A stretch of 64,000 bases of DNA from Pseudonocardia benzenivorans CB1190 (lineage in GTDB: Bacteria; Actinomycetota; Actinomycetes; Mycobacteriales; Pseudonocardiaceae). The stretch is taken from the NCBI RefSeq assembly GCF_000196675.2, contig NC_015312.1, positions 1,178,001-1,242,000 on the forward strand, read 5' to 3'. This document shows, piece by piece, positions 8,504 to 56,992 of this stretch; position 1 is the first letter of the stretch; each line of letters begins with the position of its first letter. The notes below the pieces were generated by a model. That model searched no databases, was not told the DNA's origin, and saw nothing but the letters and a program-made list of their open reading frames with translations. Both the position numbers and the translations under genes were made by a program.

Positions 8504-8507
8504 CGGG

Positions 8508-33962: not shown

Positions 33963-34084
33963 CGCAGTGGCGTCCACCAGGGTGGTGTGCGACCCGGCCC
34001 TGGTGAGGGGCGGGCGTAGACGGGGAGGGCGGCCATCGCGTGATCTTCTGGAGACCTTCCACAGTGCTTCAGGAGTTCCACGCG

Positions 34085-38005: not shown

Positions 38006-38132
38006 CAGCGGCCAGTCCAAACTCCCCGTAGGCGGCCATTTACCGCCCCACTGATGGCCAGCGATCTCCCCGCTGGCGGCCAGATATCTCCCCGGTGATC
38101 AAGCATCCGATGCCGGTGGTGAGGGTCTGCCG

Positions 38133-39719
38133 GTGAAGCGAGACGAGGAGATCATGGAGATCCTGGAGGCGTTCGACCTCACGGGCAGTTACCGCGCCGC
38201 CGCGGAGTTGGCCGGTTGTGATCACCACACCGTCGCCCGCTATGTGGCGCTGCGGGAGGCCGGTCAACCCCCGGTCGCTCGCGAGCACCGGGCACGACCG
38301 ATCGATGAGTACCTGGACAAGATCGAAGAACTGGTGGTGCGCTCCGACGGGCGGGTGCGCGCCGACGTGGTGCACGAGCGGCTGCTCGCGATGGGCTTCA
38401 CCGGCGGGGAGCGCACCACCCGCCGCACCGTCGCGCAGGTGAAGGCCCGGCTGCGGGCCGGGCAGCGGCGGGTGTTTCGGCCGTGGGTGGTCGAGCCGGG
38501 GCTGTGGCTGCAGTGGGACTGGGGCGAGGGCCCCCGCGTTGCCGGGCGCCGCACGAATCTGTGGTGCGCGTGGCTGGCCTGGTCGCGGTTCCGGGTCGTG
38601 CTCGCGGTCTTCGACCGCACCCTGCCCACGATCGTGGCCTGCATCGACACCACGCTGCGCCGGCTGGGCGGGGTGCCGACCTACGCGCTGACCGACAACG
38701 AACGCACCGTGTCGGTCGATCATGTCGCGGGGATCGCGGTGCGCCACCCGGAGATCGTCGCGGTCGGGCGGCACTACGGGATGACGATCCGCACCTGCGT
38801 GCCGGCGGACCCGCAGTCCAAGGGCGGGTCCGAAGCGACGGTGCGGATCTCCAAGGCCGACCTCGTCCCGACCGCGGCGAACCTGCTCGAGGAGTACCGC
38901 ACCTTCGCTCAGCTTGAGACGGCGTGTCGAAGCTTCTGCGAGCAGGTCAACGCGCGGCCGCATCGGGAGACCCGCCGCCCGCCGGTCGAGGCGTTGGCCG
39001 AGGAACGCACCCGGCTGCATCCGTTGCCCGATCGGCCGTTCACCGTCGCGTTCGGCACGACCCGGCGGGTGAACTGGGACGCCACCGTCTCGGTCGACGG
39101 GGTGCGCTACTCGGTGCCGCATCAGCTGGTCGACACTCGAGTCTGGGTCCGGTTCCACGGCGACGACCTGGTCATCACCGCCGTCGATGCCCCGTTGGAG
39201 GGGCACGGACCCGGCAGCGGCCCCACAGAGGTCGCCCGCCATGCCCGCTCGACGCCGGGCACGCCCTCGATCCGCGACGAGCATTACCCGCCACCCACCA
39301 CGGCCGCGAACGCCGCCGGAGAACGCACCCCACGCGCGGGCAGTGCCGCGGAGGCCGAGTTCCTGGCGCTCGGCCCGGGCGCAGCGTCCTGGCTGGTCGA
39401 GGCGGCCGGGGCGGGTGCGCGCGGGGTGCGCCGGAAGATGGCCGAAGCGGTCGCGCTGGCGAAGCTGCACCCACCCGGCGAGGTCGACCGCGCGCTGGGC
39501 ACGGCCGCGGTCGCGGGCCGGTTCGCCGAGAACGACGTCCTGCGCATCCTCGCCCACCAAGCCGGCCGCAACGTCAACAAGCCCACCATCCGCGCCAGCG
39601 AGGACCACAGCTTGCAACCCGGCACTTCCGCCTGGTCCGGCTTCGGCATCACCCCACCACCCGAAACCGACCCGTCAGGGCTCGACCCGGCAGGGCTCGA
39701 CCCGGCAGGGCCGTCATGA
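38133..39719 (+). CDS. istA: IS21 transposase IstA
   Basis: A 528-residue transposase. It has an N-terminal helix-turn-helix (MEILEAFDLTGSYRAAAELAGCDHHTVARYV) and a DDE integrase core (WLQWDWGEGP with the first aspartate, YALTDNERTVSV with the second and PQSKGGSEATVRISKADLV with the glutamate). The C-terminal part ends in a tandem GLDPAGLDPAGPS. GTG start. The stop overlaps the ATG of istB (ATGA). It looks intact. Confidence 0.93.
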   Translation: MKRDEEIMEILEAFDLTGSYRAAAELAGCDHHTVARYVALREAGQPPVAREHRARPIDEYLDKIEELVVRSDGRVRADVVHERLLAMGFTGGERTTRRTVAQVKARLRAGQRRVFRPWVVEPGLWLQWDWGEGPRVAGRRTNLWCAWLAWSRFRVVLAVFDRTLPTIVACIDTTLRRLGGVPTYALTDNERTVSVDHVAGIAVRHPEIVAVGRHYGMTIRTCVPADPQSKGGSEATVRISKADLVPTAANLLEEYRTFAQLETACRSFCEQVNARPHRETRRPPVEALAEERTRLHPLPDRPFTVAFGTTRRVNWDATVSVDGVRYSVPHQLVDTRVWVRFHGDDLVITAVDAPLEGHGPGSGPTEVARHARSTPGTPSIRDEHYPPPTTAANAAGERTPRAGSAAEAEFLALGPGAASWLVEAAGAGARGVRRKMAEAVALAKLHPPGEVDRALGTAAVAGRFAENDVLRILAHQAGRNVNKPTIRASEDHSLQPGTSAWSGFGITPPPETDPSGLDPAGLDPAGPS

Positions 39720-40507
39720 ACGCGGCCACCGGATCAGTGCCGGCATCGGGCGGGGACCCGCTCGCCGAGGCCGTCGCGCTGACGCGGCGGTTGAAGCTGC
39801 CCCACATCCGCCGCCACCTCGTCGAACTCGTGCCCACCGCGCGAGCACAACGCTGGGACCATGCCGAGCTCGTCCGGGTGCTGCTGGCCGAGGAAGCCGC
39901 CGGCCGCGACGCGACGAACCTGCGCACCCGCCGCCAACGAGCTGGGTTCCCCGCCGGCAAGACGTTGCACGACTGGGACGCGGGCGCGTCCTGCATCCCG
40001 CGCCCCACCCAAGACGCCCTCACCTCGCTGGAGTGGGTCAGCCGGCGGGAGAACCTCTGCGTCTGCGGGCCGTCCGGGACCGGGAAGTCCCACTTCTGCG
40101 AAGCCCTCGGTCAGGCCGCGGTCGAGACGGGGATGACCGTGGCCTGGTTCACCATCGAAGACCTCGGCGCCCTCGTGCGTCGTCACCGCGCCGACGACTC
40201 GATCACCCGCGCACTCGCGAGACTGATCCGCACGGACCTGATCATCGTCGACGACATCGGGCTCCTGCCGGTCAGCCCGGACGCCGCGGAAGGGTTCTAC
40301 CGGCTCGTCGATGCCGCCTACGAACGCCGCTCCCTGGCCATCTCCAGCAACCTGCACCCGTCAGGATTCGACGAGATCATGCCCAAGACCCTGGCCACCG
40401 CCACGGTCGACCGGCTCCTGCACCACGCCCACATCGTCGTCACCGACGGTGACAGCTACCGGCTCGCACAAGCCACCGCCGGCAAGGGGGTGAGCCCGTT
40501 GAGCTGA
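39716..40507 (+). CDS. istB: IS21 helper ATPase IstB
   Basis: A 263-residue AAA+ ATPase related to DnaA/DnaC that controls target choice and activates IstA. Walker A is GPSGTGKS (near residues 119-126), Walker B is LIIVDDIGLL, and SSNLHPSGFDEIMPK with the arginine-finger region follows. Translation is coupled to istA. Confidence 0.94.
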   Translation: MNAATGSVPASGGDPLAEAVALTRRLKLPHIRRHLVELVPTARAQRWDHAELVRVLLAEEAAGRDATNLRTRRQRAGFPAGKTLHDWDAGASCIPRPTQDALTSLEWVSRRENLCVCGPSGTGKSHFCEALGQAAVETGMTVAWFTIEDLGALVRRHRADDSITRALARLIRTDLIIVDDIGLLPVSPDAAEGFYRLVDAAYERRSLAISSNLHPSGFDEIMPKTLATATVDRLLHHAHIVVTDGDSYRLAQATAGKGVSPLS

Positions 40508-42640: not shown

Positions 42641-42812
42641 GGCGGTGGGATGCCGTCATCGCGAGCTCTCTATCGAACCCCGAACGGCAGGTCGTCGGCG
42701 ACGAGCAGCGCCCGGAGCAGCGGAGTGGACAGCGGACGATCGACGACGATCGCGGCTTGCTCGCCCCTGTGACGAAGGTCAGCGACACGCCGCGGTGGTG
42801 CCACCGCGCTGA

Positions 42813-43760
42813 TCAAGCAACAGGCGGCAGCCACCTCGACGCACTGGTCGCACGCTGCACGCACCGCTCCGATCGCAACGAACCAGCCCCGCGGCGCCGG
42901 TCCCCGACGAGCCGCGCGACGGTTGCGGTCCGATCGCACGCGAGCCGCAGCTGCGACTGCTCGCAGCGGGCGTGCAGATCGGTCGCCGCCGCAGCCGACC
43001 TCACGGCCGTGACCGCCACCGAAACCGCGCTCAGCACAGCGGTATCCTGGCTCGCCGCGACGGTGGCCGCGGCCAGCACCTCCACGCACCGGACGAGATG
43101 CGCCCGCCGCACGACCTCCTCGACCAGCGGCTCCACGCCCTCAGCGAGACGACGGACCGACATGCCGTCGAACCGGGCGCGGGCTGTCGGCCGCGTGAGG
43201 TCCGGCCCCGGTTCGCGAACCGCCGACGCCGGTCTGTCGACGGCCAGGAGCGTGACTTTGTCCTCCGCGGTCCGGGCGACGACGAGCCAGCGGTCCGCGT
43301 CGATTCCGTGCAGGACGTTCGTGACTTCGCCGTGCACAACGGTGTCCCACTCACCGTCGCCCTCGACCCGGCCTCCGAAGGCAACCGCGACCACGCTGTC
43401 GCCGGTGGCGATCTCGGTGAGCAGACCACGCTCGCCGAGCGCGATCGCGACCAACGGAGCGATGATCGCCGTGGACAGGAACGGAACCGGCGCCGGAATC
43501 CGCGACAGTGCCCACGCCACGGAGAGACTACGGCTGAGGCTCGCCCCCTGCCCCCCGCATTCCGTCGGCACGAGCAGTCCGCTGATCCCGTGGCCGCACA
43601 GGGCGTCCCAGGCGTCGCGAACCGCGAACGCGTTGACGCCGGGGGCGTCCGACTCCTCGGCCGGGGACCACAAGGCCGGCAGGTGCGTGAGGAGCGCGTC
43701 GATGATGTCGAACTCGGCCGGGTCGGCCGACGGGAACGGGCGCAGGTCGTCGTTCTTCAT
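42813..43760 (-). CDS. Acyl-CoA dehydrogenase-like protein, C-terminus apparently degenerate
   Basis: A 315-residue frame. The first 220 residues match the N-terminal and beta domains of acyl-CoA dehydrogenases (GISGLLVPTECGGQGASLSRSLSVAWALS, GDSVVAVAFGG and ADRWLVVARTAEDKVTLLAVDRP). The expected four-helix C-domain with the RxFGxPI and LHGG motifs is not visible; instead AVRAACDQCVEVAAAC occurs in another frame that stays open to 42670. A frameshift near 42880 is likely. ATG 43760 has AGAGGTGA upstream. Last gene of the leftward arm of the catabolic locus. Confidence 0.62.
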   Translation of the reverse strand: MKNDDLRPFPSADPAEFDIIDALLTHLPALWSPAEESDAPGVNAFAVRDAWDALCGHGISGLLVPTECGGQGASLSRSLSVAWALSRIPAPVPFLSTAIIAPLVAIALGERGLLTEIATGDSVVAVAFGGRVEGDGEWDTVVHGEVTNVLHGIDADRWLVVARTAEDKVTLLAVDRPASAVREPGPDLTRPTARARFDGMSVRRLAEGVEPLVEEVVRRAHLVRCVEVLAAATVAASQDTAVLSAVSVAVTAVRSAAAATDLHARCEQSQLRLACDRTATVARLVGDRRRGAGSLRSERCVQRATSASRWLPPVA

Positions 43761-43786
43761 GGTCACCTCTCGGCGGTCGTCGACGA

Positions 43787-45262
43787 TCACGTCGGCGGGA
43801 ACGGGTGCGAGATGTATTTCGTCTCCAGGTACTCCTGCATTCCGACGTCGCTGCCCTCGCGTCCGAGGCCCGACTGCTTCATCCCGCCGAACGGAGCGGA
43901 CGCGTCGGACACGAGGCCACGGTTGAGCCCAACCATGCCGCACTCGAGGGCATGGGCGGCTCGCGTGAGCCGCGCCGCGTCCCGCGACCAGGCGAACCCG
44001 ACGAGACCCGCGTCCGTGTCCGATGCGAGCTGCAACGCTTCCTCCTCGGAGTCGACGACGCGGACGGGCGCGACCGGCGCGAAGACCTCTTCACGCCAGA
44101 CCGCCGAATCCGTGCACACGTCGGTCAGGAGGACCGGCCGCAGGAACGCTGTCCCGGGCTCGGGATCGTCGGACAGGACCGGTGTCGCGCCGTCGGCGAT
44201 CGCGTCCCGGACGAGCCCGGCCGCGCGGTCGCGTTGTCTGGTGTTGATCATCGGGCCGAGGGTCGTCGCCGGATCGGCACCGTGCCCAACGACCTGGGCC
44301 CGCAGCCGGTCGGCGAACGCCGCGACGAACTCGTCGGCGACACGGCGATCAACGATGAACCGGTTCGCTGCGACGCAGCTCTGTCCGCCGTTGCGGAGCT
44401 TGGCGACGACCGCGCCTTCGACCGCGGCGTCGAGGTCCGCGTCGGCGAAGACGACGAACGGGGCGTTGCCGCCCAGTTCCATCGAGGTCCGCAGCACGCC
44501 GTTCGCCGAGGCCGCGAGCAGGCGGCGGCCGACCTCGGTGGAGCCGGTGAAGGAGAGCTTCCGAATGCGATGGTCGTCGAGCATGCGGGCCACGACCTGC
44601 CCCGGCCGCGACGTCGTGAGCACGTTGACCACCCCCGGCGGCACGCCGACCTCGACGAGGAGGTTGGCGAACAGGAGGGCGGTGAGGGGTGTCTCCTCGG
44701 CCGGTTTGACGACGACCGTGCACCCCGCGGCGAGGGCAGGCGCGATCTTGCGGGTCAGCATCGCCAGTGGGAAGTTCCACGGGGTGATCAGCAACGACGG
44801 CCCGACCGGCTGCCTGATCGTCGTGTGGAACGCCGCGCCGTCGGGGGCGGTCCGCGTCGTTCCCGTGGCGCGCACCGCCTCCTCGGCGTACCAGCGGAGG
44901 AACTCTCCGCCGTATGCCACCTCCGCCCGCGACTCCGCGAGCGGCTTGCCCATCTCGCTCGTGATCACCGACGCGAACGCGCCGGCCCGGGCCATCAGGA
45001 GGTCGTAGGCCGCACGCAACAGCTCCCCCCTGTACCGCGGCGCGGTCCTCGACCAGCTGTCGAAGGCCGTCGCCGCGGCGTCGACGGCGTCGACCGCGTC
45101 CTCCGGGGCGGCGTCGGCGATCTCGGCGAGGGTCGCCCCGGTCGCGGGGTCCGTCACGACCAGCGGCGCGCCCTCTGTCCGCGGATCGCGCCAATCACCC
45201 GCGATCAGCAGCTGCGTCGGCGCGGCGCCCACGGCCGGCGCCAGGAGGGCCGTCGTGTTCAT
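43787..45262 (-). CDS. NAD(P)-dependent succinate-semialdehyde-type aldehyde dehydrogenase
   Basis: A 491-residue aldehyde dehydrogenase. General base E262 (MELGGNAPF) and nucleophile C296 (GGQSCVAANRF) are present, as are LLITPWNFPLAM, the cofactor turn SFTGSTEVGR and the SSADH-like end ASAPFGGMKQSGLGREG. Closest by motif to GabD. In a lactam or cyclic-amine pathway it would oxidise an omega-oxo acid such as succinate semialdehyde to the diacid (inference). Its ATG overlaps the stop of the permease gene (ATGA), and the acyl-CoA dehydrogenase gene follows by 26 bp. Confidence 0.88.
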   Translation of the reverse strand: MNTTALLAPAVGAAPTQLLIAGDWRDPRTEGAPLVVTDPATGATLAEIADAAPEDAVDAVDAAATAFDSWSRTAPRYRGELLRAAYDLLMARAGAFASVITSEMGKPLAESRAEVAYGGEFLRWYAEEAVRATGTTRTAPDGAAFHTTIRQPVGPSLLITPWNFPLAMLTRKIAPALAAGCTVVVKPAEETPLTALLFANLLVEVGVPPGVVNVLTTSRPGQVVARMLDDHRIRKLSFTGSTEVGRRLLAASANGVLRTSMELGGNAPFVVFADADLDAAVEGAVVAKLRNGGQSCVAANRFIVDRRVADEFVAAFADRLRAQVVGHGADPATTLGPMINTRQRDRAAGLVRDAIADGATPVLSDDPEPGTAFLRPVLLTDVCTDSAVWREEVFAPVAPVRVVDSEEEALQLASDTDAGLVGFAWSRDAARLTRAAHALECGMVGLNRGLVSDASAPFGGMKQSGLGREGSDVGMQEYLETKYISHPFPPT

Positions 45263-46923
45263 GCCCGCGGCTCCGGGGCCTTCGGGGCGGCGTCCACCGC
45301 GACCGGTGTCGTCGGCACCGTCCGCGCCTCGGCGTAGGCGGCACGCAGGTAGGCGTTGTCGTTGCTGCCGCATTCGCCACAGATCGGAGCGTGGCCGGGG
45401 GTCGCCGGGTTCCGATCCATCTCCTGGGCGATGTAGGACCGTTCGCACGAGGCGCACTCCACCCGTGCCTCCCACGGGTCGTCGACCTCGAAGCGGGGAT
45501 CGTGGGGGCGGATCAGCCGGACGTGGCGCTCCCCAGTGAGGTACCGGCCGATCGCGTAGAGGACGCCCGCGATCACGAAGGCGAACGGTGGTGCCCATGT
45601 CGCCCCGAACGATCCGCCGGCCTCGACCATGACGATCCCGGTCATCGATGCGACGAGCCACGAGCCGAGACCGACGACGTTGAACGCGGGGACCCGTCCG
45701 GGACGGAACTCGAACTCCTCGGAGGGGCGACGGTCACGCCGCGCGAATGCGAGATAGACGAGCGCGATCGCAACCCAGGCAACGACGACGACACCCTGCC
45801 ACTGGAGCGCCTTCAGCAGGTAGGAGATGGCGTTCGTCAGCATCAGCGCGAAGACCGCGACACCTGCCAGGACCACCCAGACCCGGCGCGGGAGCCTGAT
45901 GCGGAACACGCGGGCGAAGAAGCTCTCTGCGTTGATACTCGCCAGGTAGTAGTTGGCCGTGTTGATCCTGGTCTGGCTGACCCAGACCAGCGCGACGCCG
46001 AAGATTCCGGTGAGGCCGACGATCGCCTGCACCGCAGAGAGCTCGGTCAGGGTCGTGCCAGCGGTGAGGCTGTGCGCGAGGAAGATGCCGACGACCGCGT
46101 TCACGCCCAGGGTCAGTGTGTAGAACAGCGGGCCGAAGGTGAGCCACTTGTGGAAGGTGGCGTCGGCGGTCTTTGCGAGCCGGGCATAATCCCACGTGAA
46201 GGGCTTCATGATCCACACGCCCATGTAGACCGAGAAGGCGAAGACCCAGCCGGGCGCATAGAAGTTCGCCTGCGGGTCAACGGGGCCGGCGGTGAGCCAG
46301 TCGTTGCTGTAACCGTTGACGACGATCGTCCAGACGACGGCGACGGTGAGGCCGATGTAGTAGAACGGCAGCAGGACGCCGTTCAGTTTGTCGAGCCAGG
46401 TGCGCACGCCGCCGATGACGATCGGAATGCTGTACGCGGCGACGATCAGGTACCAGATCTGAATGTTGCCCCACCCCGTGTACTGGTGGAACACCTCGGC
46501 GACGACGGAGCCTTCGAAAACTGCGTAGTAGAGCGCCGTCGCTCCGACGATCAATGGTGCTACCGCGGCTCCGAGATAGCCGAACAAGGCGCGCGAGAAC
46601 AGTGCACTCGATATTCCGGTACGTGCCGCGTGCCTGCCGAGGAGCGTGCCGAACACGCTGTACGCGATGATCGACAGTCCCAGGCCGATCAGGGTGTCTC
46701 GCGTTCCGACGGCGAGCGACACCGTCGCCCCGACGATCAGCCAGAACATGGCGCTCGCGAACGCGTACCACGCCATCAGCAGCGATACCCGTCCTGACCT
46801 CCAAGTCCTCGGGGCGACGTGGAGCGCGTAATCCTCTGTTCCCGCGCTCCTGACCACGCGCGGGTCGTCCTCGTACGACACCCGAAGTGGCGCCAAGGAA
46901 CCTGTTCTATCTTCCCCACTCAT
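45259..46923 (-). CDS. NCS1-family transporter with C-terminal CxxC-CxxC ribbon
   Basis: A 554-residue membrane protein with twelve predicted helices. The N-terminal segment SLLMAWYAFASAMFWLIVG and the following GTRDTLIGLGLSIIAYSVFG are typical of nucleobase-cation symporter-1 proteins, which import cytosine, uracil, allantoin, hydantoins and related ring compounds. After the last helix (about 470) an extra soluble tail carries C490-x2-C493 and C515-x2-C518, a probable zinc ribbon that standard NCS1 proteins lack. First gene of the leftward arm; ATGA overlap with the aldehyde dehydrogenase gene. Confidence 0.87.
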   Translation of the reverse strand: MSGEDRTGSLAPLRVSYEDDPRVVRSAGTEDYALHVAPRTWRSGRVSLLMAWYAFASAMFWLIVGATVSLAVGTRDTLIGLGLSIIAYSVFGTLLGRHAARTGISSALFSRALFGYLGAAVAPLIVGATALYYAVFEGSVVAEVFHQYTGWGNIQIWYLIVAAYSIPIVIGGVRTWLDKLNGVLLPFYYIGLTVAVVWTIVVNGYSNDWLTAGPVDPQANFYAPGWVFAFSVYMGVWIMKPFTWDYARLAKTADATFHKWLTFGPLFYTLTLGVNAVVGIFLAHSLTAGTTLTELSAVQAIVGLTGIFGVALVWVSQTRINTANYYLASINAESFFARVFRIRLPRRVWVVLAGVAVFALMLTNAISYLLKALQWQGVVVVAWVAIALVYLAFARRDRRPSEEFEFRPGRVPAFNVVGLGSWLVASMTGIVMVEAGGSFGATWAPPFAFVIAGVLYAIGRYLTGERHVRLIRPHDPRFEVDDPWEARVECASCERSYIAQEMDRNPATPGHAPICGECGSNDNAYLRAAYAEARTVPTTPVAVDAAPKAPEPRA

Positions 46924-47421
46924 GATATGCCTCCGAGGATCTGTCGGCGAGATGGCCGGTATTGCGCATCCGCGGCGGGTCGTTTCGTATGTCGCGACCC
47001 TCGAGCCGCACGGAGCGGTAGATTATTTGCATGCCCGTGGGGGCGGTTCAAGCAGAGTTTTCGACAATCCGCGGCGCCTGTTCTGGAGTACTGACAGGCG
47101 CCGCCGGTCGCAGTTCCTGTGGGTCCTCCAATCAGGCGGCGGCCCGTTTGGATATCGGATGACGGCTGGGCCGCCAGGTCCTTGCCGGTGCTCCGAACGG
47201 CCGCCGGACCGGGCCGCATACGCAGCGCCGGCTCCTCGCGTGTGAGGGTTGGGGGCCGCCGGGCACCGGAGCCGGCGAGGGGGTCCGGAGCGACGACAAG
47301 TCGGGGGCTCGCGTCTCTCACTAGTTCCTATTGCTCTCGTCGGACCGGCTGAGCCAGATTGACAGGGCCGCGGGGCCGACGCCCCGCCGCACTGACACGA
47401 CGAGTCAGGAGGAGGTGCACC
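46924..47421. promoter_or_regulatory. Divergent control region of the catabolic locus
   Basis: 498 bp without a gene between the permease and HyuA genes. It must hold both promoters. An exact 11-bp inverted repeat (47071-47081 with 47094-47104, 12-bp spacer, GCGGCGCCTGT arms) is the best operator candidate, for instance for the PucR-type regulator encoded downstream. An AT-richer stretch at 47020-47035 (TAGATTATTTGCAT) may contain a -10 element of the leftward promoter. Confidence 0.5.
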
Positions 47422-49458
47422 GTGGGACAACGCGTTGCCGTCGACGTCGGGGGCACCTTCACCGACGTCTGCGTCGTCGGTGGTGACGACGGCCTCGTCG
47501 TCGCGAAGGTCCCGACCACGGAGCACGCGGTCGAGGGTGTCCTGCACGGTCTCGGGGAGGCCGACGTGGACCTGGGCCGCGTCGAGTTCTTCTCCCACGG
47601 GACGACCGCCGCGACCAACGCCCTGCTCAACCGCCGTTTCCCGAAGGCGGCGCTGGTCACCACGCACGGGTTCCGGGACGTGCTCGAGATCGGGCGCGGC
47701 ACGAAGAGCGACCTGTGGGACGCCTACGCCGACGTCGCCCCGCCCTACATCGCGCGCCGCGACCGGCTCGTCGTGACGGAGCGGATCGACGGCATGGGTC
47801 GGGTCATCACCCCGCTGGACGTGCGCGAGGCCGAGGCGGTGATCGAGACGCTGCGCCGCCGCGAGGTCGAGACGGTCGCGGTCTGCTTCCTCAACTCCTA
47901 TGTCAACCCGGCCCACGAGCAGGAGATGGAGCGCCTGATCAGGGCAGCACTGCCGCACGTGGTCGTGTCGGTATCCAGCACCGTCCTGCCCGAGATCCAG
48001 GAGCACGAGCGCTTCTCGACCACCGTCGTGAACGCGCTGTTGTCGCCGCTGGTCAAGCAGTACACGACCGGTCTGGAGTACGAGCTCGGCCGGGCCGGAT
48101 ACCGGGGCAGGCTGCAGCTCCTGCACGGCGGTGGCGGTCTCATGTCGTCCCAGACCGCGGAGCGGTACGCCGGGCGCCTCGCCTCCTCCGGGGTCGCGGC
48201 GGGGGCGATCGCCGGCAAGCACATCGCGCTGGCCTGCGGCTTCGAGAACTCCATCGGCCTGGACATCGGCGGCACCAGTGCCGACATCTCGATCGTGTTC
48301 GACGGCGAGTCCCGGATCGTGCGCAACTGGCACGTCGACTACGGACACCCGATCTGCTTCCCGTCGCTGGAGGTGCTGACTATCGGCGCAGGCGGCGGCT
48401 CGCTGGCCTGGGTCGACGACGGTGGCGCCCTGCGTGTCGGCCCGCAGTCGGCGGGCGCCAACCCCGGACCAGCTTGCTACGGCCTCGGCGGTACGTCGGC
48501 GACCACCACCGACGCTCAGTTGGTACTGGGCCGGATCGGGACGTCGCTGGCCGGCGGGACGCGGATCCTCGATCCCGATGCGGCTGCACGGGCGGTCGGG
48601 CTGGTCGCGGCCGAGCTCGGCTGCTCCACCGAGGAGGCAGCCGTCGGGATCGTCCGTGTGACGTCGGCGAACATGGCCGACGCGCTGCGCATCATGTCGG
48701 TCCGGCGAGGACACGACCCGCGCGAGTTCGCGCTCGTCGCGTTCGGCGGGGCCGGGCCGCTGCACGCGGTGGAGCTCGCTCGCGAGCTGGGGATCCCCGA
48801 GATCGTAGTTCCGCCACACCCCGGTACGACCTCCGCCCTCGGGTGCCTGCTCGTCGACACCCGCCACGACCTCAGCACGATGTTCATCCGCGGTGTCGAC
48901 TCCGCCGACCCTTTCGAGGTCGAGTCGGCGTTCCTCGAGCTCGAGGCGTCGTCACGGGACAGCCTGGTGGACGACCACGTCGCACCCGAACGAATGAGCC
49001 TGCAGCGCTTCGTGGAGATGCGCTACCGCGGGCAGTACCGGTCGCTGTCGATCCCGGTCGACGGACCGGTGCGCGGCCTGGACGGGCTCACCGCCAAGTT
49101 CCACACCCAGCACCACCGCGAGTTCGGGTTCAGCCAGCCCGAGGCTGAGGTCGAGCTGTACCAGCTCTCCGTCTCCGCGCTCGGCGTGATCGACAAGCCC
49201 GAGGTACGCCCCGGCAGCTGGGGTTCCCCACCGCTCACGCCTGCGACCCACCGGCGGGTCCGGTCGGTCGAGACGGGCAGCTGGATCGACACCCCCGTGT
49301 TCGACCGGACGGATCTCTTCCCAGGGGCTCGTATCGACGGGCCCGCACTGGTCTCACAGTCGGATTCGACGACCCTGCTCCCGCCCGGGGCCGGCGCCGT
49401 CGTCGACGACATGCTGAACCTGCGCGTCACCCCGCGCCAGGAGGTGTCGGCCCGATGA
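47422..49458 (+). CDS. hyuA: Hydantoinase/oxoprolinase family subunit A
   Basis: A 678-residue protein of the HyuA/5-oxoprolinase N-terminal class. The first phosphate-binding loop VDVGGTFTDVCVVGG (residues 7-21) and the second, GLDIGGTSADISIVFDG (about 280-296), mark the ASKHA-like ATPase fold that phosphorylates and opens an amide or lactam ring, or activates a ketone. SHGTTAATNALLNRR and CFLNSYVNPAHEQEMERLI are also typical. GTG 47422 lies after AGGAGGAGG. HyuB overlaps by 4 bp. No third (gamma) subunit as in acetone carboxylase is found, which favours an amidohydrolase. Confidence 0.9.
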   Translation: MGQRVAVDVGGTFTDVCVVGGDDGLVVAKVPTTEHAVEGVLHGLGEADVDLGRVEFFSHGTTAATNALLNRRFPKAALVTTHGFRDVLEIGRGTKSDLWDAYADVAPPYIARRDRLVVTERIDGMGRVITPLDVREAEAVIETLRRREVETVAVCFLNSYVNPAHEQEMERLIRAALPHVVVSVSSTVLPEIQEHERFSTTVVNALLSPLVKQYTTGLEYELGRAGYRGRLQLLHGGGGLMSSQTAERYAGRLASSGVAAGAIAGKHIALACGFENSIGLDIGGTSADISIVFDGESRIVRNWHVDYGHPICFPSLEVLTIGAGGGSLAWVDDGGALRVGPQSAGANPGPACYGLGGTSATTTDAQLVLGRIGTSLAGGTRILDPDAAARAVGLVAAELGCSTEEAAVGIVRVTSANMADALRIMSVRRGHDPREFALVAFGGAGPLHAVELARELGIPEIVVPPHPGTTSALGCLLVDTRHDLSTMFIRGVDSADPFEVESAFLELEASSRDSLVDDHVAPERMSLQRFVEMRYRGQYRSLSIPVDGPVRGLDGLTAKFHTQHHREFGFSQPEAEVELYQLSVSALGVIDKPEVRPGSWGSPPLTPATHRRVRSVETGSWIDTPVFDRTDLFPGARIDGPALVSQSDSTTLLPPGAGAVVDDMLNLRVTPRQEVSAR

Positions 49459-51461
49459 CCGCTTCCGAGCCGGCAATCGCCAAGCCCGCGGCGGTCGCCC
49501 CGTCCGACGGTCCCGTGCTCGACCCCATCACGAGTGAGGTGCTGCGCAACGCCTTCGTGACCGCCGTCGACCTGATGGCCGAACAGCTGCTGCGGACCTC
49601 GCACTCGTTCGTCATCCACGCGCGCGACTTCTCCGGGGCCCTCAGCGACGCCAACGGCGATACCGTCGCGCAGGGCAGCCAGGACGTGGCCGTCCAGGTC
49701 GGGACACTGCACTTCTCCGCGAAGGCCGTGCTCGACGCGTTCCCCGGTGACATCTGCGACGGCGACGTGTTCGTCCTCAATGACCCCTACGCCGGCGGCA
49801 CCCACTTCAACGACGTCCGCGTCCTCCGCCCGATCTTCGACGACGGCGTCCTGATCGCCATGGCCCAGAGCAACGGGCACTGGGCCGACGTCGGCGGGTC
49901 GGCCCCGGGGTCGTTCGACACGACCGCGGTCGAACACTTCGGCGAAGGACTCCGGATCACACCGGTCCGCGTGTGGCACCGCGGCAGGTACCTCGCCGAC
50001 GTGGCTCGGCTCATCGCCTCGAACACCCGGGCACCCGAGGATGCCGAGGGCGACCTGCTGTCCCAGGCCGAAGCCACACGGGTCTGCGAGCGCGAGGTCC
50101 TGCGGCTCACGGCCAAGTACGGCAGGGAGGCCGTCCTCGCCGCGTTCGAGGAGTCGCAGGCCTACGTCGAGCGCGTCGTCCGCCGCCGCGTCGGTGCGCT
50201 CCCGGACGGCTACTGGGAGGCGGAGGACTACATCGATGTCGACCCGAACCAGGGCGACGGGCTCGTCCCGATCCGCGTCGGGATGCACATCGCGGGCGAC
50301 GCGATCCGATACGACCTCAGTGGCTCCCACCCAGCCATCGGCAGCTTCCTGAACTCGGCCTTCGGCGGGACGTTCTCCGCCATCGTCGCCGGCACCAAGA
50401 CGTTCTTCCCCGACGTCCCGCTGAACTCCGGCTTCTACCGGCCGTTGCTCGTCGACTTCGGGCCACCGGGGACCGTGGTGAACGCGTCGTGGCCCACTGC
50501 GGTCACCGGGTTCTACGCCGGCCCCTACGAGAAGATCGTCAGCGCGATCTTCCAGATCTGGTCGGAGATCGTCCCGCAGCGGGCGATCAGCACGTCCTTC
50601 AACCTCGAGTACCTCCTGCTCGGCGGCCGCGACGTGCGCCGGGGCAGGCAGGGCCGGTTCATGTACTACGACTGGATGGCCGGCGGGTGGGGCGGCCGCA
50701 ACGGCAAGGACGGCTCGAACGCGACGGCCTCGATCTTCGGTGTCGGCCACGCCATCCAGTCGATCGAGATGCAGGAACGCTCCTCCCCGGTCCTTACCGG
50801 CCGGTGCGAGCTCCGGACCGACTCCGCCGGACCGGGCGAGTTCCGCGGCGGGCTCGGGCTGGTCAAGGAGGTGACGTTGACCGACGGCGACGGCGTCGTC
50901 CTGTCCTACTGCTCCGACCGGGCACGGTCGGTCATCACCGGCACCGGCGGCGGTCTACCGAGCTGCCCGCACGGCCTGTCCATCAACCCACGCTCGGCCG
51001 GGGCCCGCTACCTCGGCGCGCTCGCCTCACGCCTCACGATCGTCCCGGGGGACTCACTCGAGCGGCCGTCGGCCGGGGGCGGCGGGTTCGGCGACCCTTT
51101 GTGCCGCGACCCGGAGCGCGTGCTCGCCGACGTCGTCGACGACTACGTATCCGTAGACCGGGCCCGCAAGGACTACGGCGTCGTCGTCCGCAACGACCCC
51201 GAGGATCCGGACTCCTTCCAGGTCGACGACGTCGGCACCGCAGCCGAGCGGCGGCGCTTGCGCGGCCACCGCGTCGACGCGCTCCATGCCGATCCCGCCG
51301 CGGTCGCGGAGATGTACGTGAACGGCGAGCTCGATGAGTTCGACCTCGTCCGTCAGTTCGGCGTCATCCTCGACTGGGGCAGCGGCCGGCTGCTAGTCCG
51401 GACGACCGAGCAGTTCCGCGACATCTTCCAGCGCCGATGCGTGCGGTTCTGGCCCGCCTGA
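49455..51461 (+). CDS. hyuB: Hydantoinase/oxoprolinase family subunit B
   Basis: A 668-residue HyuB protein, partner of HyuA. Conserved blocks are DPITSEVLRNAFVTAVDLMAEQL, FVIHARDFSGALSDANGDTVAQG, GDVFVLNDPYAGGTHFNDVRV (metal-binding NDPY..GTH) and the late RPSAGGGGFGDPL. Together HyuAB would form an ATP-dependent ring-opening amidohydrolase, as in N-methylhydantoinase, caprolactamase and the N-methylpyrrolidone pathway. Overlaps hyuA (ATGA). The diiron monooxygenase genes follow after 85 bp in the same direction, suggesting one operon. Confidence 0.9.
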   Translation: MTASEPAIAKPAAVAPSDGPVLDPITSEVLRNAFVTAVDLMAEQLLRTSHSFVIHARDFSGALSDANGDTVAQGSQDVAVQVGTLHFSAKAVLDAFPGDICDGDVFVLNDPYAGGTHFNDVRVLRPIFDDGVLIAMAQSNGHWADVGGSAPGSFDTTAVEHFGEGLRITPVRVWHRGRYLADVARLIASNTRAPEDAEGDLLSQAEATRVCEREVLRLTAKYGREAVLAAFEESQAYVERVVRRRVGALPDGYWEAEDYIDVDPNQGDGLVPIRVGMHIAGDAIRYDLSGSHPAIGSFLNSAFGGTFSAIVAGTKTFFPDVPLNSGFYRPLLVDFGPPGTVVNASWPTAVTGFYAGPYEKIVSAIFQIWSEIVPQRAISTSFNLEYLLLGGRDVRRGRQGRFMYYDWMAGGWGGRNGKDGSNATASIFGVGHAIQSIEMQERSSPVLTGRCELRTDSAGPGEFRGGLGLVKEVTLTDGDGVVLSYCSDRARSVITGTGGGLPSCPHGLSINPRSAGARYLGALASRLTIVPGDSLERPSAGGGGFGDPLCRDPERVLADVVDDYVSVDRARKDYGVVVRNDPEDPDSFQVDDVGTAAERRRLRGHRVDALHADPAAVAEMYVNGELDEFDLVRQFGVILDWGSGRLLVRTTEQFRDIFQRRCVRFWPA

Positions 51462-51546
51462 ACCGACTCCTCCTCGCGCTGCGTTCCGCGCCGCCGACCC
51501 TTCCCGCGAACTTACGATCCGAAACCGAACGAGAGGAACCCGAACA

Positions 51547-53064
51547 ATGCCGCTCCTGGAGCGATCCGCGTGGTACGACATCGCACGCGACACGAACTGG
51601 ACGCCGAAGTACGTCGAGGTCGACGAGCTGTTCCCGCCGGACCAGAGCGACCCGTACGGAATCCCTGTCGCCGAGTGGGAGACGTTCGATGAGCCGTACA
51701 AGGTCTCCTACCGGGAGTACGTCAGCGTTCAGCGGGAGAAGGACGCCGGCGCCTACTCGGTGAAGGCGGCCCTGGCGCGCTCGAGCTACTACGAGGACGC
51801 CGACCCGGCGTACCTCAGCATGCTGAAGCTCCACTACGGAGCCATCGCGCTCTCCGAGTACGCCGCCTGCCAGTCCGACGCCCGGATGACGCGCTTCTCC
51901 AAGGCCCCCGGAATGCGCAACATGGCGACCTTCGGAATGCTCGACGAGCTCCGACATGGCCAGATCCAGCTCTACTTTCCGCATCAGCTCGTGTCCCTGG
52001 ACCGCCAGTTCGATTGGGCCCACCAGGCTCACCACAGCAAGAACTGGGCCGCGATCGCCGGCCGCCATGCGCTCGACGACGTGATGATGACCCGCGATGC
52101 CGTCACCACCTCGGTGATGCTGAACTTCGCGTTCGAGACGGGTCTGACCAACATCCAGATGATTGGCCTGTCGGCCGACGCGGCCAACATGGGCGACTTC
52201 ACGTTCTCAAACCTGATCACCAGCATCCAGTCCGACGAGGCCAGGCACGCCCAGATCGGGACGCCTGTCCTTGAAATCATGGTGCGCAACGGCAGGAAGG
52301 CCGAGGCGCAACAGGCGGTCGACATCGCGTTCTGGAGGATCCACCGCATCTTCGCGATCCTCACCGGCATCCCGATGGACTACTGGATCCCGCTGGAGAA
52401 GCGCGACCGATCGTTCAAGGAGTACATGACCGAATTCGTCGGCGAACAGTTCGAGCGCCAGCTGCTCGACCTCGGCCTCGAGCGGCCCTGGTACTGGGAC
52501 ATCTTCCTCGAAGACGTCGAGACCCACCACCACTGCCAAGCCGCAGCCACGTGGGCGTGGCGCAACACCCTGTGGTGGAACCCGACCGGCAACGTCGGCC
52601 CCCGCGAGCGGGCGTGGCTGGAGGAGAAGTATCCCGGTTGGAACGACACGTTCGGAATGTACTGGGACGTTATGATCGAGAACATCCGCGCAGGTCATCC
52701 CGAGAAGTCCGAGGCGGTCGGCATGCCGGCCATGTGCAACATGTGCCAGATCCCGATCTCCAACAAGGGCGGGACCGTCTGGCAGGCCCGGGCCTACCAG
52801 CTCGAGTACGAGGGCCGGCTCTACAGCTTCTGCAGCACCGTCTGCAAGTGGATCTTCGAGCTCGAGCCCAGCCGGTACAAGACGTTCAACACGATTGCCG
52901 ACCGCATGTACAACGGCGAGATCTCACCGAACACGCCGGAGAGCATCTTGCAGTACATGGGTTCCGGTGTGATCAGCCAGGGGGGACGGGACGCCCACGA
53001 CCTCGCCTGGGTCAGGGCCTACGACGAGCCCGGCGCGACACCGAGGCTCGTCGCGGGCAGCTGA
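51547..53064 (+). CDS. tmoA: Diiron monooxygenase hydroxylase alpha subunit (TmoA-like)
   Basis: A 505-residue large subunit of a four-component soluble diiron monooxygenase. All six iron ligands fall at the T4MO positions: E104, E134, H137, E197, E231 and H234 (SEYAA, DELRHG, FETG, DEARH), plus catalytic T201. Pocket and channel residues differ from toluene-4-monooxygenase (G103S, F176L, F205M, E214N, D285K). The C-terminal domain keeps C397-x2-C400 and C429-x3-C433, a YHS/zinc-type site that T4MO has lost. The symbol names the family, not the substrate. ATG 51547 follows GAGAGGAA. Confidence 0.95.
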   Translation: MPLLERSAWYDIARDTNWTPKYVEVDELFPPDQSDPYGIPVAEWETFDEPYKVSYREYVSVQREKDAGAYSVKAALARSSYYEDADPAYLSMLKLHYGAIALSEYAACQSDARMTRFSKAPGMRNMATFGMLDELRHGQIQLYFPHQLVSLDRQFDWAHQAHHSKNWAAIAGRHALDDVMMTRDAVTTSVMLNFAFETGLTNIQMIGLSADAANMGDFTFSNLITSIQSDEARHAQIGTPVLEIMVRNGRKAEAQQAVDIAFWRIHRIFAILTGIPMDYWIPLEKRDRSFKEYMTEFVGEQFERQLLDLGLERPWYWDIFLEDVETHHHCQAAATWAWRNTLWWNPTGNVGPRERAWLEEKYPGWNDTFGMYWDVMIENIRAGHPEKSEAVGMPAMCNMCQIPISNKGGTVWQARAYQLEYEGRLYSFCSTVCKWIFELEPSRYKTFNTIADRMYNGEISPNTPESILQYMGSGVISQGGRDAHDLAWVRAYDEPGATPRLVAGS

Positions 53065-53112
53065 TCCAGGGGATCCCCCAACCGGCACCACCCACGGAAA
53101 CGGAGGTTGACG

Positions 53113-53385
53113 ATGAGTTCCCTCGCAGTGATCGGACGTCTCGAGAAGGACGCCCACACCCGAATCATCGACGTCGACACGGACTTCACGATGGACCAGG
53201 TCGTCGAGGCCTGTCTCGCACCGGCAGTGGGCTACCAGGCTCGTCACCCGAAGCCCGGCGCGATGCTGCGGGTGCGGCCGACCACCGACACCGACGACGC
53301 GGACCCGTTCCCGCGATCGATGACGGTGGCGGAGGCGCGGCTGCGGCACTTCCAGCAGATCGACATCTACGTCTCGGACGACTGA
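53113..53385 (+). CDS. tmoB: Diiron monooxygenase gamma subunit (TmoB-like)
   Basis: A 90-residue ubiquitin-fold subunit of the hydroxylase. It aligns with TmoB along its whole length (DVDTDFTMDQVVEACLAP...MLRVRP...LFPR-type FPRSMTVAEARL...IDIYVSDD). ATG 53113 lies 6 nt after GGAGG; the TTG at 53107 is less likely. A 13-bp hairpin follows 6 bp after the stop. Confidence 0.9.
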   Translation: MSSLAVIGRLEKDAHTRIIDVDTDFTMDQVVEACLAPAVGYQARHPKPGAMLRVRPTTDTDDADPFPRSMTVAEARLRHFQQIDIYVSDD

Positions 53386-53391
53386 CCCGAC

Positions 53392-53425
53392 GTGGTCCCT
53401 CCGGTTCGCGGACCGGAGGGACCAC
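53392..53425 (+). promoter_or_regulatory. Intra-operon hairpin between tmoB and tmoC
   Basis: A perfect 13-bp inverted repeat (53392-53404 with 53413-53425) with an 8-nt loop and no T-run. Its position inside the operon points to partial termination or mRNA-end protection that would make more hydroxylase alpha/gamma than the downstream components. Confidence 0.6.
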
Positions 53426-53444
53426 AGGGAAGGGAAGGACGGGC

Positions 53445-53798
53445 ATGTCCCAACCGCCTCCGCCGCACTTCCACCAGGTGTGCCCTGCAGACGACCTCTG
53501 GGCCGGCGAGATGCAGGAATTCACCGTCGGTGAGACCCCGGTCCTGCTGCTACGCACGGACGACGGTGCCGTCCGCGCGGTGCAGTACACCTGCCCGCAC
53601 CAGGACTTCCCGCTGAGCGACGGCGACTTTGACGGGTGCACGCTCACCTGCGGCGCCCATCTGTGGGAGTTCGACGCACAAACCGGCCGGAGCATAAACC
53701 CGGACGACGCGAAACTGGCGTTGTACCCCGTCGAAGAACGCGACGGATTCGTATTCGTCGCCGTCGACGGCATCGATCCATTCCATTCACACGCCTGA
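53445..53798 (+). CDS. tmoC: Rieske ferredoxin component (TmoC-like)
   Basis: A 117-residue Rieske 2Fe-2S protein that passes electrons from a reductase to the hydroxylase. Cluster ligands are C50-x-H52 (CPH) and C69-x2-H72 (CGAH), spaced as in T4moC. EFTVGETPVLLLRTDDGAVRAVQ precedes them. ATG 53445 has AGGGAAGG upstream. Its usual electron donor TmoF is not encoded in the window. Confidence 0.94.
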   Translation: MSQPPPPHFHQVCPADDLWAGEMQEFTVGETPVLLLRTDDGAVRAVQYTCPHQDFPLSDGDFDGCTLTCGAHLWEFDAQTGRSINPDDAKLALYPVEERDGFVFVAVDGIDPFHSHA

Positions 53799-53820
53799 CG
53801 GCGTGGTTCGGCTCGACAGG

Positions 53821-54135
53821 ATGGGCACCAGAATGACAGAAACGACCACCCGGTCCTCGCTGCGAGCAGGCCCGCTCCTACGGGGCGGGGAGATCTCCGT
53901 CGTCGCCGTCGACGCGATCGCGGAGGACAACCCGGGCAAGGAGATCCACGTCGACGACCACCGCACCTACGTGCGGGTGGAGGCCGAGGGGGGCCTCGTC
54001 ATCCGTCGCGCGACCATGGAACGACTCCTCGGCCGTCCGTTCGCCATGCAGGAACTCGAGGTCAATCTGACCGGCTATTCCGGACAGATCGACACGCATG
54101 ACGAGTATATGCGCTGGTACTTCATCAAGCATTAG
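53821..54135 (+). CDS. tmoD: Catalytic effector protein (TmoD-like)
   Basis: About 104 residues with the effector signature DNPGKEIHVDDHRTYVRVEAEG and LGRPFAMQELEVNLTGYSGQI, matching T4moD. Such proteins bind the hydroxylase near the diiron site and gate oxygen and substrate. The start is uncertain (ATG 53821 or ATG 53833; GTG 53803 is also in frame), as no strong ribosome binding site is visible; the gene is 22 bp downstream of tmoC, so coupling is likely. Confidence 0.9.
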   Translation: MGTRMTETTTRSSLRAGPLLRGGEISVVAVDAIAEDNPGKEIHVDDHRTYVRVEAEGGLVIRRATMERLLGRPFAMQELEVNLTGYSGQIDTHDEYMRWYFIKH

Positions 54136-54165
54136 CGATACGGAAGAAGGATTGGAGCCACAACA

Positions 54166-55185
54166 ATGGCTGTCGAGCACGAAAGCGATTTCGCACCCCT
54201 TAAGACCTGGAGCCACCTCGCCAAGAACCGGCGGCGCCCGACCGAGTACGAGATCGTCTCGACGAACCTGCTCTGGAGTACCGACGACGACGCCCCGTGG
54301 GCAATGGGACCCGACGTTCCGCTGAGCCGCTGGTACATCAAGTACCGCAACAACAGCCCGCTCCGCCACGGGGACTGGGACGGCTTCCGCGACCCCGACC
54401 AGTTGGTCTACCGCACGTACAATATGATCCAGGATGGCCAGGAGTCACACGTCGACGCCCTGCTCGAGGACCACAGCGGCAACGAGCACGACGAAGGGTT
54501 GACCACCGAGTGGGTAGGCCGGCTCGCGACGTTCTACACGCCGGCCAAGTACCTCCTGCATACGGTCCAGATGGCGGCGGCCTACCTCGCCGCGTTGTCG
54601 CCGTCGAGCACCATCGAGAACTGCTTCATCTTCGAGTCGGGTGACCAGCTCCGGTGGGTGTCACGCACTGCCTACCGCACCGCGGAGCTGCGTTCCACGC
54701 ACCCGGATGTCGGCTTCGGCAGCCAGGAGCGCGCGACCTGGGAGAATCACCCCGCCTGGCAGGGCTTCCGCGAGCTCATGGAGAAGACCCTCGTCACGTG
54801 GGACTGGGCCGAGCAGTTCGTCGCGCTCAACCTGGTGGCGAAGCCTGCGATCGACGCCGCGCTGCTGCGCACCCTGTCGACCGTCGCGCACGACAACGGC
54901 GACACCCTGCTCGCCCTCCTCTGCCGAGCTCAGCTCATCGACAGTGAGCGGACGGTCCGATGGTCCGAGGCGCTGCTGCGGTACGCGCTGGACTCGCCGG
55001 AGCACGGAGACGACAACCGCGACCTGGTGCAGTCGTGGTTCAACAAGTGGGCCCCGTTGGCCGATGCCGCCGTCACCGCCTACTGCAGTGCGCTGGCACA
55101 GGCGGTCGACGCCGGTGAGGTCGCCCGGGAGCTTGCGAACCACCGTGAGTCGCTGCTGACACCGGCAGCCGTCGCTAGCCTCTGA
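54166..55185 (+). CDS. tmoE: Diiron monooxygenase hydroxylase beta subunit (TmoE-like)
   Basis: A 339-residue structural subunit of the hydroxylase. Matches to TmoE run through the whole length: KTWSHLAKNRRRPTEYEIVS, WYIKYRNNSPLRHGDWDGF, DPDQLVYRTYNMIQDGQES, LRWVSRTAYRTAEL and WQGFRELMEKTL. It is the last monooxygenase gene; the next gene is the PucR-type regulator, so the reductase expected here in tmoABCDEF is missing. Confidence 0.94.
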   Translation: MAVEHESDFAPLKTWSHLAKNRRRPTEYEIVSTNLLWSTDDDAPWAMGPDVPLSRWYIKYRNNSPLRHGDWDGFRDPDQLVYRTYNMIQDGQESHVDALLEDHSGNEHDEGLTTEWVGRLATFYTPAKYLLHTVQMAAAYLAALSPSSTIENCFIFESGDQLRWVSRTAYRTAELRSTHPDVGFGSQERATWENHPAWQGFRELMEKTLVTWDWAEQFVALNLVAKPAIDAALLRTLSTVAHDNGDTLLALLCRAQLIDSERTVRWSEALLRYALDSPEHGDDNRDLVQSWFNKWAPLADAAVTAYCSALAQAVDAGEVARELANHRESLLTPAAVASL

Positions 55186-55327
55186 GCCGGCGGGCACCGG
55201 AGCACCGTCGCGGTGCGCAGCGGCCGGATAGGGTCGATGGGCGCCGCGACGGTCGGCTCCGTTGTGCGACGATCTCAGGACTTCCACCCACGGTAAGGCC
55301 CCGACGATGCGGCACTGGGGAGGACCG

Positions 55328-56965
55328 ATGACGCTCACCCTGCGCGACGTACTCCAGCAGGACGACCTCGACCTGCAGCTCGTCGTCGGAGGCGACGAGG
55401 CGCTCGAGACCGAGGTAGCCGGCTCCGCGTTCCTCCAGCTCGGCGAGCAGCCGCGCACCGACCGCCACCACAACCTGCTGCTGCTGACCAGTGGTGGCCC
55501 CGTCGGCCCCGACGAGGCGGCCGACCGCCGTCTAATCGCCGCAGCCCGGCGTGCAGGCGCCGCGGGCATCGTGCGTGCCGTCGTGAACGGCGACGAGGTC
55601 CCCCGGGCGCTGCGTGACGCGGCGGAACAGCACGACCTCGTCCTGCTCGTCGCTGGGTCGAGCGCCTCGCTGCGCGACGTCCAGGACGCCATCAACGAGC
55701 GCGTCACCCGTGCCGACCTGCAGCTCTACCAGCGCCTCCTGACACTGCAGTCGAGCCTCATCGCCGCCGTCTCTGCGCCTGACCCGACGGGCTCGCTCCT
55801 CCGCCAGCTCGGTGCCGTCGTCCACAGCACGGTGATCCTCTACTACCCGGACGGGCGGGTCCTCTCCGTGACCGGCGACGGACCCACGGAGGTCATCTGG
55901 CGCAACATCGACAAGAGCAGGCACACACGGCAGCGGTTCGCCGTCGGGCAGTGGCACGTCGTCGCCTCGCTGATCACCGGCTCCGACGAGACCCACCGAT
56001 GGATCGTCCTCGCCAAGCGCGGGGCAGCGACGTCGGACGACATCGTCTCCCCGCTGATCGCCACGGTCGAGCAGCTCCTAGACGTCATCGCGCTGAGCCG
56101 GCGGGCCGCGGCGAACGAGGAGGCCCTCCAGCGCGCCGACGTCCTCACTCGCCTGATCACCGGGAACGAGCACGAGCGCTTCGGCTGGGACTACCTCCGT
56201 CCCTTTGGGTTCGTCCCGCACGGCCCCTGCTACGTCGCCGCGATCGCGCAGGCGCAGTGGACGGGAAAGCGCCTCGATCCGGAGGTGCACAGGCACCAGC
56301 TACGGGAGTCCACGCAGATCACCCGGGGCCTAGCGGCGAACTCGACGGCGCCAAACCTCGTCGCCGCGATCGACGGCCTCATCGTGCTGCTCGTCCAGGC
56401 CCCCGATCCGCAGATCGTCCAGGAGTGTGTCGAAGTGCTCGGCGGCCGCGGCTTCCCCGCGTCGGCGGGCGTCGGGCGCAAGGTCGCGTCCCTCGACCAG
56501 GTCGTCAACAGCTATCGCGACGCGCGGCTAGCCCTGACCCGCGCGCTGACCCGGCCGGACGGACCGGGTGCGGTCCAGCGGTTCGAGGACTTCACCGTTG
56601 CCGACATCGCGATCAGCACGGCGAGCGAGGACCAGCTCCGCGGCCGCGCTCGCGACCTCCTGGCCAGGCTGGACGGCAGCGGACCGATCCTGGAGACGTT
56701 GATGGCCTATCTCGACAGCAGCCTGAGCATCAACGACACCGCTAATGGCCTCCACATCCACCCGAACTCCGTGCGATACCGCATCAGTCGTGCCGAAGAG
56801 CTGATCGGGAGCTCACTGCGGGACCTGTCCACCATCGTCGACATCTACCTGGCCGTGCAGATCATGGCGCGGACGCGGTCGTCGACAGCGGGTTCGACGC
56901 CGTCCGCGGGCGCCGACGAGAGCTCGGTGGCCGAGCGTCAGCGGGTGACCCGGCGGTCGATGTAG
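55328..56965 (+). CDS. PucR/CdaR-type transcriptional regulator
   Basis: A 545-residue regulator. It has an N-terminal PucR-like sensory domain (TLRDVLQQDDLDLQLVVGG...), a middle region including SAGVGRKVASLDQVVNSYRDARLALTRA (the GGDEF-like/CdaR part) and a C-terminal helix-turn-helix (LMAYLDSSLSINDTANGLHIHPNSVRYRISRAEELIG). Family members control purine, allantoin and other nitrogen or acid catabolic operons, often as activators. ATG 55328 with GGGGAGG at 4-5 nt is preferred over 55262. It lies 142 bp after tmoE in the same direction and is the probable local regulator. Confidence 0.9.
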   Translation: MTLTLRDVLQQDDLDLQLVVGGDEALETEVAGSAFLQLGEQPRTDRHHNLLLLTSGGPVGPDEAADRRLIAAARRAGAAGIVRAVVNGDEVPRALRDAAEQHDLVLLVAGSSASLRDVQDAINERVTRADLQLYQRLLTLQSSLIAAVSAPDPTGSLLRQLGAVVHSTVILYYPDGRVLSVTGDGPTEVIWRNIDKSRHTRQRFAVGQWHVVASLITGSDETHRWIVLAKRGAATSDDIVSPLIATVEQLLDVIALSRRAAANEEALQRADVLTRLITGNEHERFGWDYLRPFGFVPHGPCYVAAIAQAQWTGKRLDPEVHRHQLRESTQITRGLAANSTAPNLVAAIDGLIVLLVQAPDPQIVQECVEVLGGRGFPASAGVGRKVASLDQVVNSYRDARLALTRALTRPDGPGAVQRFEDFTVADIAISTASEDQLRGRARDLLARLDGSGPILETLMAYLDSSLSINDTANGLHIHPNSVRYRISRAEELIGSSLRDLSTIVDIYLAVQIMARTRSSTAGSTPSAGADESSVAERQRVTRRSM

Positions 56966-56992
56966 CGCGCCGCCGCTGTCACCGTGTCGCTC

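Follow-up and report, generated by a model that had tools for sequence, protein, structure and literature searches.

A TmoA-like diiron monooxygenase of a distinct L200/M205 clade, conserved beside hydantoinase-type genes in Pseudonocardia benzenivorans CB1190, with a possible role in N-heterocycle breakdown

The window analysed here is a 64,000-nucleotide stretch of the Pseudonocardia benzenivorans CB1190 genome (contig NC_015312.1, positions 1,178,001 to 1,242,000). It contains a cassette in which the genes of a four-component diiron monooxygenase stand beside those of a hydantoinase-type enzyme; positions are those of the window:

43787-45262, minus strand: aldehyde dehydrogenase, succinate-semialdehyde dehydrogenase (SSADH)-like, 491 aa (TIGR01780)
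45259-46923, minus strand: polytopic membrane permease, 554 aa, with weak resemblance to the NCS1 (cytosine/purine/allantoin) family
47359-49458, plus strand: HyuA, hydantoinase A/caprolactamase alpha-like, 699 aa (PF01968, PF05378, PF19278)
49455-51461, plus strand: HyuB, hydantoinase B/caprolactamase beta-like, 668 aa (PF02538), with a D/H/D/H metal tetrad
51547-53064, plus strand: tmoA-like SDIMO hydroxylase alpha subunit, 505 aa, intact ORF
53107-53385, plus strand: tmoB-like gamma subunit, 92 aa (PF06234, E 7.1e-27)
53445-53798, plus strand: tmoC-like Rieske ferredoxin, 117 aa (PF00355), with the CxH...CxxH motif
53803-54135, plus strand: tmoD-like effector protein, 110 aa (PF02406)
54166-55185, plus strand: tmoE-like hydroxylase beta subunit, 339 aa (PF02332)
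55262-56965, plus strand: PucR-type transcriptional regulator, 567 aa (PF07905, PF17853, PF13556)

The HyuA and HyuB genes overlap by 4 nt and HyuB is separated from tmoA by 85 nt on the same strand; the permease and aldehyde dehydrogenase genes lie upstream and are divergent from hyuAB-tmoABCDE. The gamma subunit, Rieske ferredoxin, effector and beta subunit are encoded in one operon (TmoB, Rieske, MmoB/DmpM and Phenol_Hydrox Pfam matches), and the set of hydroxylase, effector and ferredoxin is complete. No PF00970 match that would indicate a tmoF-type reductase was found anywhere in the 64-kb window; the oxygenase is group 2-like in its architecture, without a reductase gene of its own. Upstream of the cassette, at 33000-40500, several transposase-like ORFs were recognised by eye (IS110-like, and an IstA/IstB pair), suggesting that the neighbourhood is mobile.

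The alpha subunit was aligned globally with T4moH, the sequence of PDB entry 3dhg providing the numbering used throughout. The alignment is gap-free through residue 488 and 269 of the 500 aligned residues are identical (54% identity; 56% to TouA of ToMO). The preliminary description, made from the sequence alone, had placed the diiron ligands and the conserved threonine at their T4moH numbers, and E104, E134, H137, E197, E231, H234 and T201 do all coincide, as does Q228; the protein thus carries, intact, the six ligands and T201 by which a group 2 SDIMO alpha subunit is recognised. A structure model had been named as a check. The AlphaFold2 model (mean pLDDT 82.3, pTM 0.84) superposes with its residues 2-492 on residues 2-492 of T4moH (5tdv; Z 48.9, 2.0 Å), and over residues 2-492 on ToMO also (Z 48-49 and 2.0 Å for T4moH and ToMO); since the same residue ranges superpose, the T4moH numbering also holds in the structure. 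The C-terminal part of the protein is a YHS domain with C397, C400, C429 and C433. The fold, the diiron ligands, the T201/N202/Q228 triad and the tmoABCDE gene order are all shared with the T4moH/TmoABCDE system of Pseudomonas mendocina KR1, but the window, unlike that system, has no tmoF reductase nearby and the neighbours are instead HyuAB, the SSADH-like dehydrogenase, the permease and PucR.

In its pocket the window protein has S103, L176, L200 and M205, and in the channel N214 and K285. The five differences from T4moH listed in the preliminary description (103 G/S, 176 F/L, 205 F/M, 214 E/N and 285 D/K, T4moH residue first) are all real in the 3dhg alignment, and to them can be added F200L and, from the same alignment, 180 I/M. 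TouA has the fold, M180 and L192 in common with the window protein, but differs from it in its gene neighbourhood and in bearing E103, F176, F200, F205, E214 and S285 (1t0q).

How diagnostic these residues are was judged from an alignment of 101 alpha subunits, of which two distant rows (L006 and L026) were left out of the tally to leave 99 (18 from the clade of the window protein and 81 others); many rows are close relatives, and the counts are of sequences rather than of independent events. It is clear that position 205 separates the two sets, with Met in 18/18 clade members and Phe in 81/81 of the others. Position 200, adjoining T201, does so equally well (Leu in 18/18 inside; Phe or Tyr in 81/81 outside), and the change of F200 to Leu is a signature residue that the preliminary description overlooked. 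At position 176, Phe is found in 80 of the 81 outside sequences and Leu in the remaining one, and the clade itself has nine Leu, seven Met, one Ile and one Phe (n = 18), Leu176 marking an inner subclade of the Met205 clade. Position 214 is Glu in 53/81 and Asn in 13/81 outside the clade, Asn214 being common in the sister clade. Outside the clade, position 103 is occupied by G, V, A, E, Q or P, and position 285 by H, V, S, D, K, Q and others; since both positions are hypervariable across the family, the differences there are ordinary and mean little alone. Nine sequences, from Actinomycetota and Alphaproteobacteria, share the full set S103/L176/M205/N214/K285, which is more than chance would give. 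The expectation that the residues of the window protein would be uncommon among toluene- and isoprene-type alpha subunits therefore held for M205 (0/81) and L176 (1/81), but not for the variable positions 103 and 285 or for Asn214.

It had further been argued that these pocket positions set regiospecificity, and that toluene is in consequence unlikely to be the natural substrate. In ToMO, the changes F176I/L/T shift regioselectivity with 2-phenylethanol, to p-tyrosol, E103G alone has little effect on regioselectivity and position 285, at the tunnel entrance, alters the rate but not regio- or enantioselectivity (PMC3962191). A literature search returned no report on F205 variants. Because of these variant effects the pocket residues alone do not exclude toluene. 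The conclusion itself is likely to be right: the clade, the cassette and the rarity of L176 and M205 all speak against toluene, with neighbourhood and phylogeny weighing more than the pocket. The conserved HyuAB/SSADH/permease cassette, of which the preliminary description made no use, is a stronger argument than the pocket residues.

A tree of 64 alpha subunits, also named as a check, was built with IQ-TREE after removal of the five pocket columns; the alpha gene of Pseudonocardia sp. SCN 73-27 (L010/L054) was left out because, at a contig end, its C-terminal quarter derives from a different operon. The window protein groups with four Actinomadura proteins (support 100/100) inside a 17-row clade (again 100/100) whose other members are Pseudomonadota, nearly all alphaproteobacterial metagenome bins. 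T4moH and TouA fall in a separate supported clade, and the F176/F205 pocket of the toluene/o-xylene monooxygenases proper is absent from the window protein, which has L176 and M205. Sister to the clade (one long-branched row, L122, being set aside) is a group of actinobacterial proteins that have V103 and, for the most part, A192. XamoA and an IsoA-like row (L020), which has D141 and V196 (residues mapped from PMC12917321), lie on a distant supported branch, in a region that is unsure where long branches meet. Horizontal transfer is suggested by the position of the actinobacterial genes, which are nested within an alphaproteobacterial set. No further clade members were found in the other 394 genomes of the class that were sampled (E 1e-180), and the subfamily is rare.

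Elsewhere in the family, a large actinobacterial TmoA-like clade (L065-L081, L011-L014) has V103, A192, N/K214 and mostly V285, and its Rieske gene is placed after tmoE and not after tmoB. Three alphaproteobacterial relatives each have two adjacent, diverged alpha genes (L055, 5259-6752 and 7104-8939; L056, 544-2037 and 2366-4180; L057, 9001-10500 on the plus and 7261-8859 on the minus strand). The iron ligands are complete and Met205 is present in every one of these genes; the two alphas of L055, and likewise those of L056, form one run with a single tmoC, tmoD and tmoE, a hint that the hydroxylases may be mixed or alternative. On a Rhodococcus koreensis plasmid (L143, 8001-16754) a TmoA-like cluster occurs with serine hydroxymethyltransferase and succinate-semialdehyde dehydrogenase, and the CB1190 genome has two alpha subunits of this branch (L002 and L004). 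CB1190 has seven diiron monooxygenase loci altogether; three other TmoA-type loci among them are each near a ferredoxin reductase of the glutathione-reductase type.

The cassette was found in six genomes, two of Pseudonocardia and four of Actinomadura, with the PucR gene conserved in position. In Pseudonocardia sp. SCN 73-27 the DNA is 93% identical over window positions 42649-56978, split over two contigs. The four Actinomadura species have the same order of dehydrogenase, permease, HyuA, HyuB, tmoABCDE and PucR, with identities to the window of 92-94% for the alpha subunit, 76-78% for HyuB, 74-77% for the permease and 66-68% for HyuA. Since no further genes, upstream or downstream, are common to the window and Actinomadura, the cassette looks self-contained; the six cassettes in two genera may stem from a single transfer event. 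The dehydrogenase gene of Actinomadura adjoins one for a ferredoxin reductase of the AndAa/HcaD (glutathione-reductase) type; this reductase has no counterpart in the window and only paralogues of at most 47% identity elsewhere in the CB1190 genome. A further observation concerns L010/L039/L054 (the end of contig C62 of SCN 73-27) and L040. The C62 alpha is near-identical to that of the window up to about residue 370; beyond this point it continues as the C-terminus of a different TmoA-like operon, whose next genes come after it, and the window-type C-terminus ends contig C34. The C62 alpha arose either by recombination or through a join made in the assembly.

Outside the actinobacterial group, none of the loci read, some of the alphaproteobacterial ones being short contigs, had HyuA or HyuB next to the oxygenase. 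The pocket signature and the lactamase are not strictly linked, since the proteobacterial clade members L052, L053 and L057 have an identical signature without adjacent HyuAB. Adjacency aside, HyuB paralogues are many in the genomes of proteobacterial clade members (53-58% in 5/6; the best in a Rhizobium MAG is 38%), which says little about linkage.

HyuA scores 469.4 bits against the CapA NCBIfam model and HyuB 321.9 bits against CapB, both below the curated cut-offs of 1000; scores against the carboxylase families are lower still (HyuA, ApcC 265 and ApcA 140 bits; HyuB, ApcD 100 bits). The best solved structures for the pair are N-methylhydantoinase and CapB. The motifs are complete, HyuA having DVGGTFTD, DIGGT and GANPGP and the D, H, D and H of HyuB aligning with CapB 41, 99, 102 and 124; ATP motifs and an Asp-His-Asp-His metal site of this kind have been described for the hydantoinase/caprolactamase enzymes (PMC8453981). 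In sequence and subunit architecture, therefore, HyuAB appears closest to caprolactamase CapAB and N-methylhydantoinase, and not to the acetone and acetophenone carboxylases. To our knowledge, no oxygenase is part of caprolactam catabolism.

For the aldehyde dehydrogenase, TIGR01780 was the best of 43 families (512.9 bits against a cut-off of 646.35), and SSADHs lead its characterised PDB matches. The permease, with about 10-13 hydrophobic segments, gave a near full-length but subthreshold match to PF02133 (E 0.18, 11 bits against a gathering threshold of 23.5), its best Actinomadura homologue reaching E 0.0011, and had no relevant match among solved structures. Beyond the membrane part it ends in a conserved C-terminal CxxC...CxxC tail about 40 residues long, which is unusual for such transporters.

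The alpha subunit is the diiron hydroxylase subunit of a group 2 four-component enzyme of the TmoABCDE type, from the distinct L200/M205 clade, and we propose that it serves a route from an N-heterocycle through a lactam to a semialdehyde; the explanation as a whole we put at about an even chance. The permease would import a small N-heterocycle, our best guess being a five-membered ring, for example pyrrole, 2-pyrrolidone or similar. The Rieske protein, with a ferredoxin reductase encoded elsewhere in the genome, would feed electrons to the diiron enzyme, which would insert one oxygen atom next to the nitrogen; the resulting hydroxy-heterocycle would be a lactam or would tautomerise to one. 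HyuAB would then open the lactam, spending ATP, and the opened product would fall apart to a C4 semialdehyde for oxidation by the dehydrogenase, in the simplest case from succinate semialdehyde to succinate. A five-membered ring is favoured because succinate semialdehyde is the simplest substrate for that dehydrogenase. PucR may sense the substrate or a product.

The oxygenase would act before HyuAB in this scheme. An analogy for the proposed route may be drawn from indole metabolism. T4MO-type enzymes oxidise indole to products that include oxindole, a lactam, and in the breakdown of indoleacetate the hydantoinase-like, ATP-dependent IaaCE opens an oxindole-type lactam. IaaCE has been listed among the homologues of CapAB (PMC8453981). 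A literature search gave no report of an oxygenase-plus-ATP-lactamase route, of diiron enzymes that degrade pyrrole or N-methylpyrrolidone, or of this CB1190 locus. More tentatively, and at rather less than an even chance, the cassette could constitute an undescribed catabolic module for five-membered N-heterocycles, in which an L200/M205 diiron monooxygenase makes a lactam, a hydantoinase-type ATP enzyme opens it and an SSADH-like enzyme finishes the route to succinate.

Six-membered rings might be the substrates instead, attacked as in the HpdABCDE system (2-hydroxypyridine 5-monooxygenase) or as in PmlABCDEF, which forms N-oxides; HyuAB would then work on an intermediate further along the route. 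We know of no lactamase neighbours in either system. Both are SDIMOs on N-heteroaromatics and, compared by description only, are possible functional analogues; oxidation of pyridines and pyrazines by SDIMOs is known (PMC8313251). However, no dihydroxypyridine dioxygenase was seen in the cassette and a dehydrogenase for a C4 semialdehyde is easier to reconcile with a five-membered ring, which makes this route rather unlikely. A diverged toluene/benzene-type monooxygenase with an aromatic hydrocarbon as its natural substrate, HyuAB then being an unrelated transcription unit, would agree with the common fold and ligands and the 54-56% identity to T4moH and ToMO, and variants of ToMO/T4MO at 103, 176, 214 and 285 stay active as aromatic hydroxylases (PMC3962191). 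The conserved cassette, however, has no ring-cleavage, catechol or aromatic-pathway genes, HyuAB is kept on the same strand beside tmoA in six genomes of two genera, and the alpha subunit lies outside the T4moH/TouA clade; we consider an aromatic substrate unlikely.

Alternatively, HyuAB could be a ketone carboxylase of the acetone/acetophenone type, with which it shares its superfamily and ATP/metal motifs, the oxygenase making or removing the ketone. The presence of only two subunits, as in CapAB, and the higher scores with CapA (469 against 265 and 140 bits) and CapB (322 against 100) argue against this, and the SSADH-like dehydrogenase and PucR fit a lactam better, so that a carboxylase seems improbable. 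TmoA-like enzymes also epoxidise alkenes, and an isoprene or propene epoxidase has to be weighed. XamoA and IsoA are members of the same SDIMO superfamily (PMC12917321) and have the same iron ligands. However, the window protein is only about 43% identical to XamoA and branches far from it and from the IsoA-like row, it has Q141 and F196 where IsoA has D141 and V196 (PMC12917321), and the genes annotated in the cassette include neither a glutathione transferase nor any for coenzyme M; an alkene epoxidase is highly improbable.

Oxidation of an N-heterocycle, the reading that we prefer, assigns to one of CB1190's seven diiron monooxygenases a concrete and testable proposed role in N-heterocycle breakdown. 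The clade is coherent, and TmoA-like enzymes of this kind are often annotated as toluene monooxygenase; the two-residue L200/M205 signature could keep genomes and metagenomes from being wrongly credited with the degradation of toluene or isoprene.
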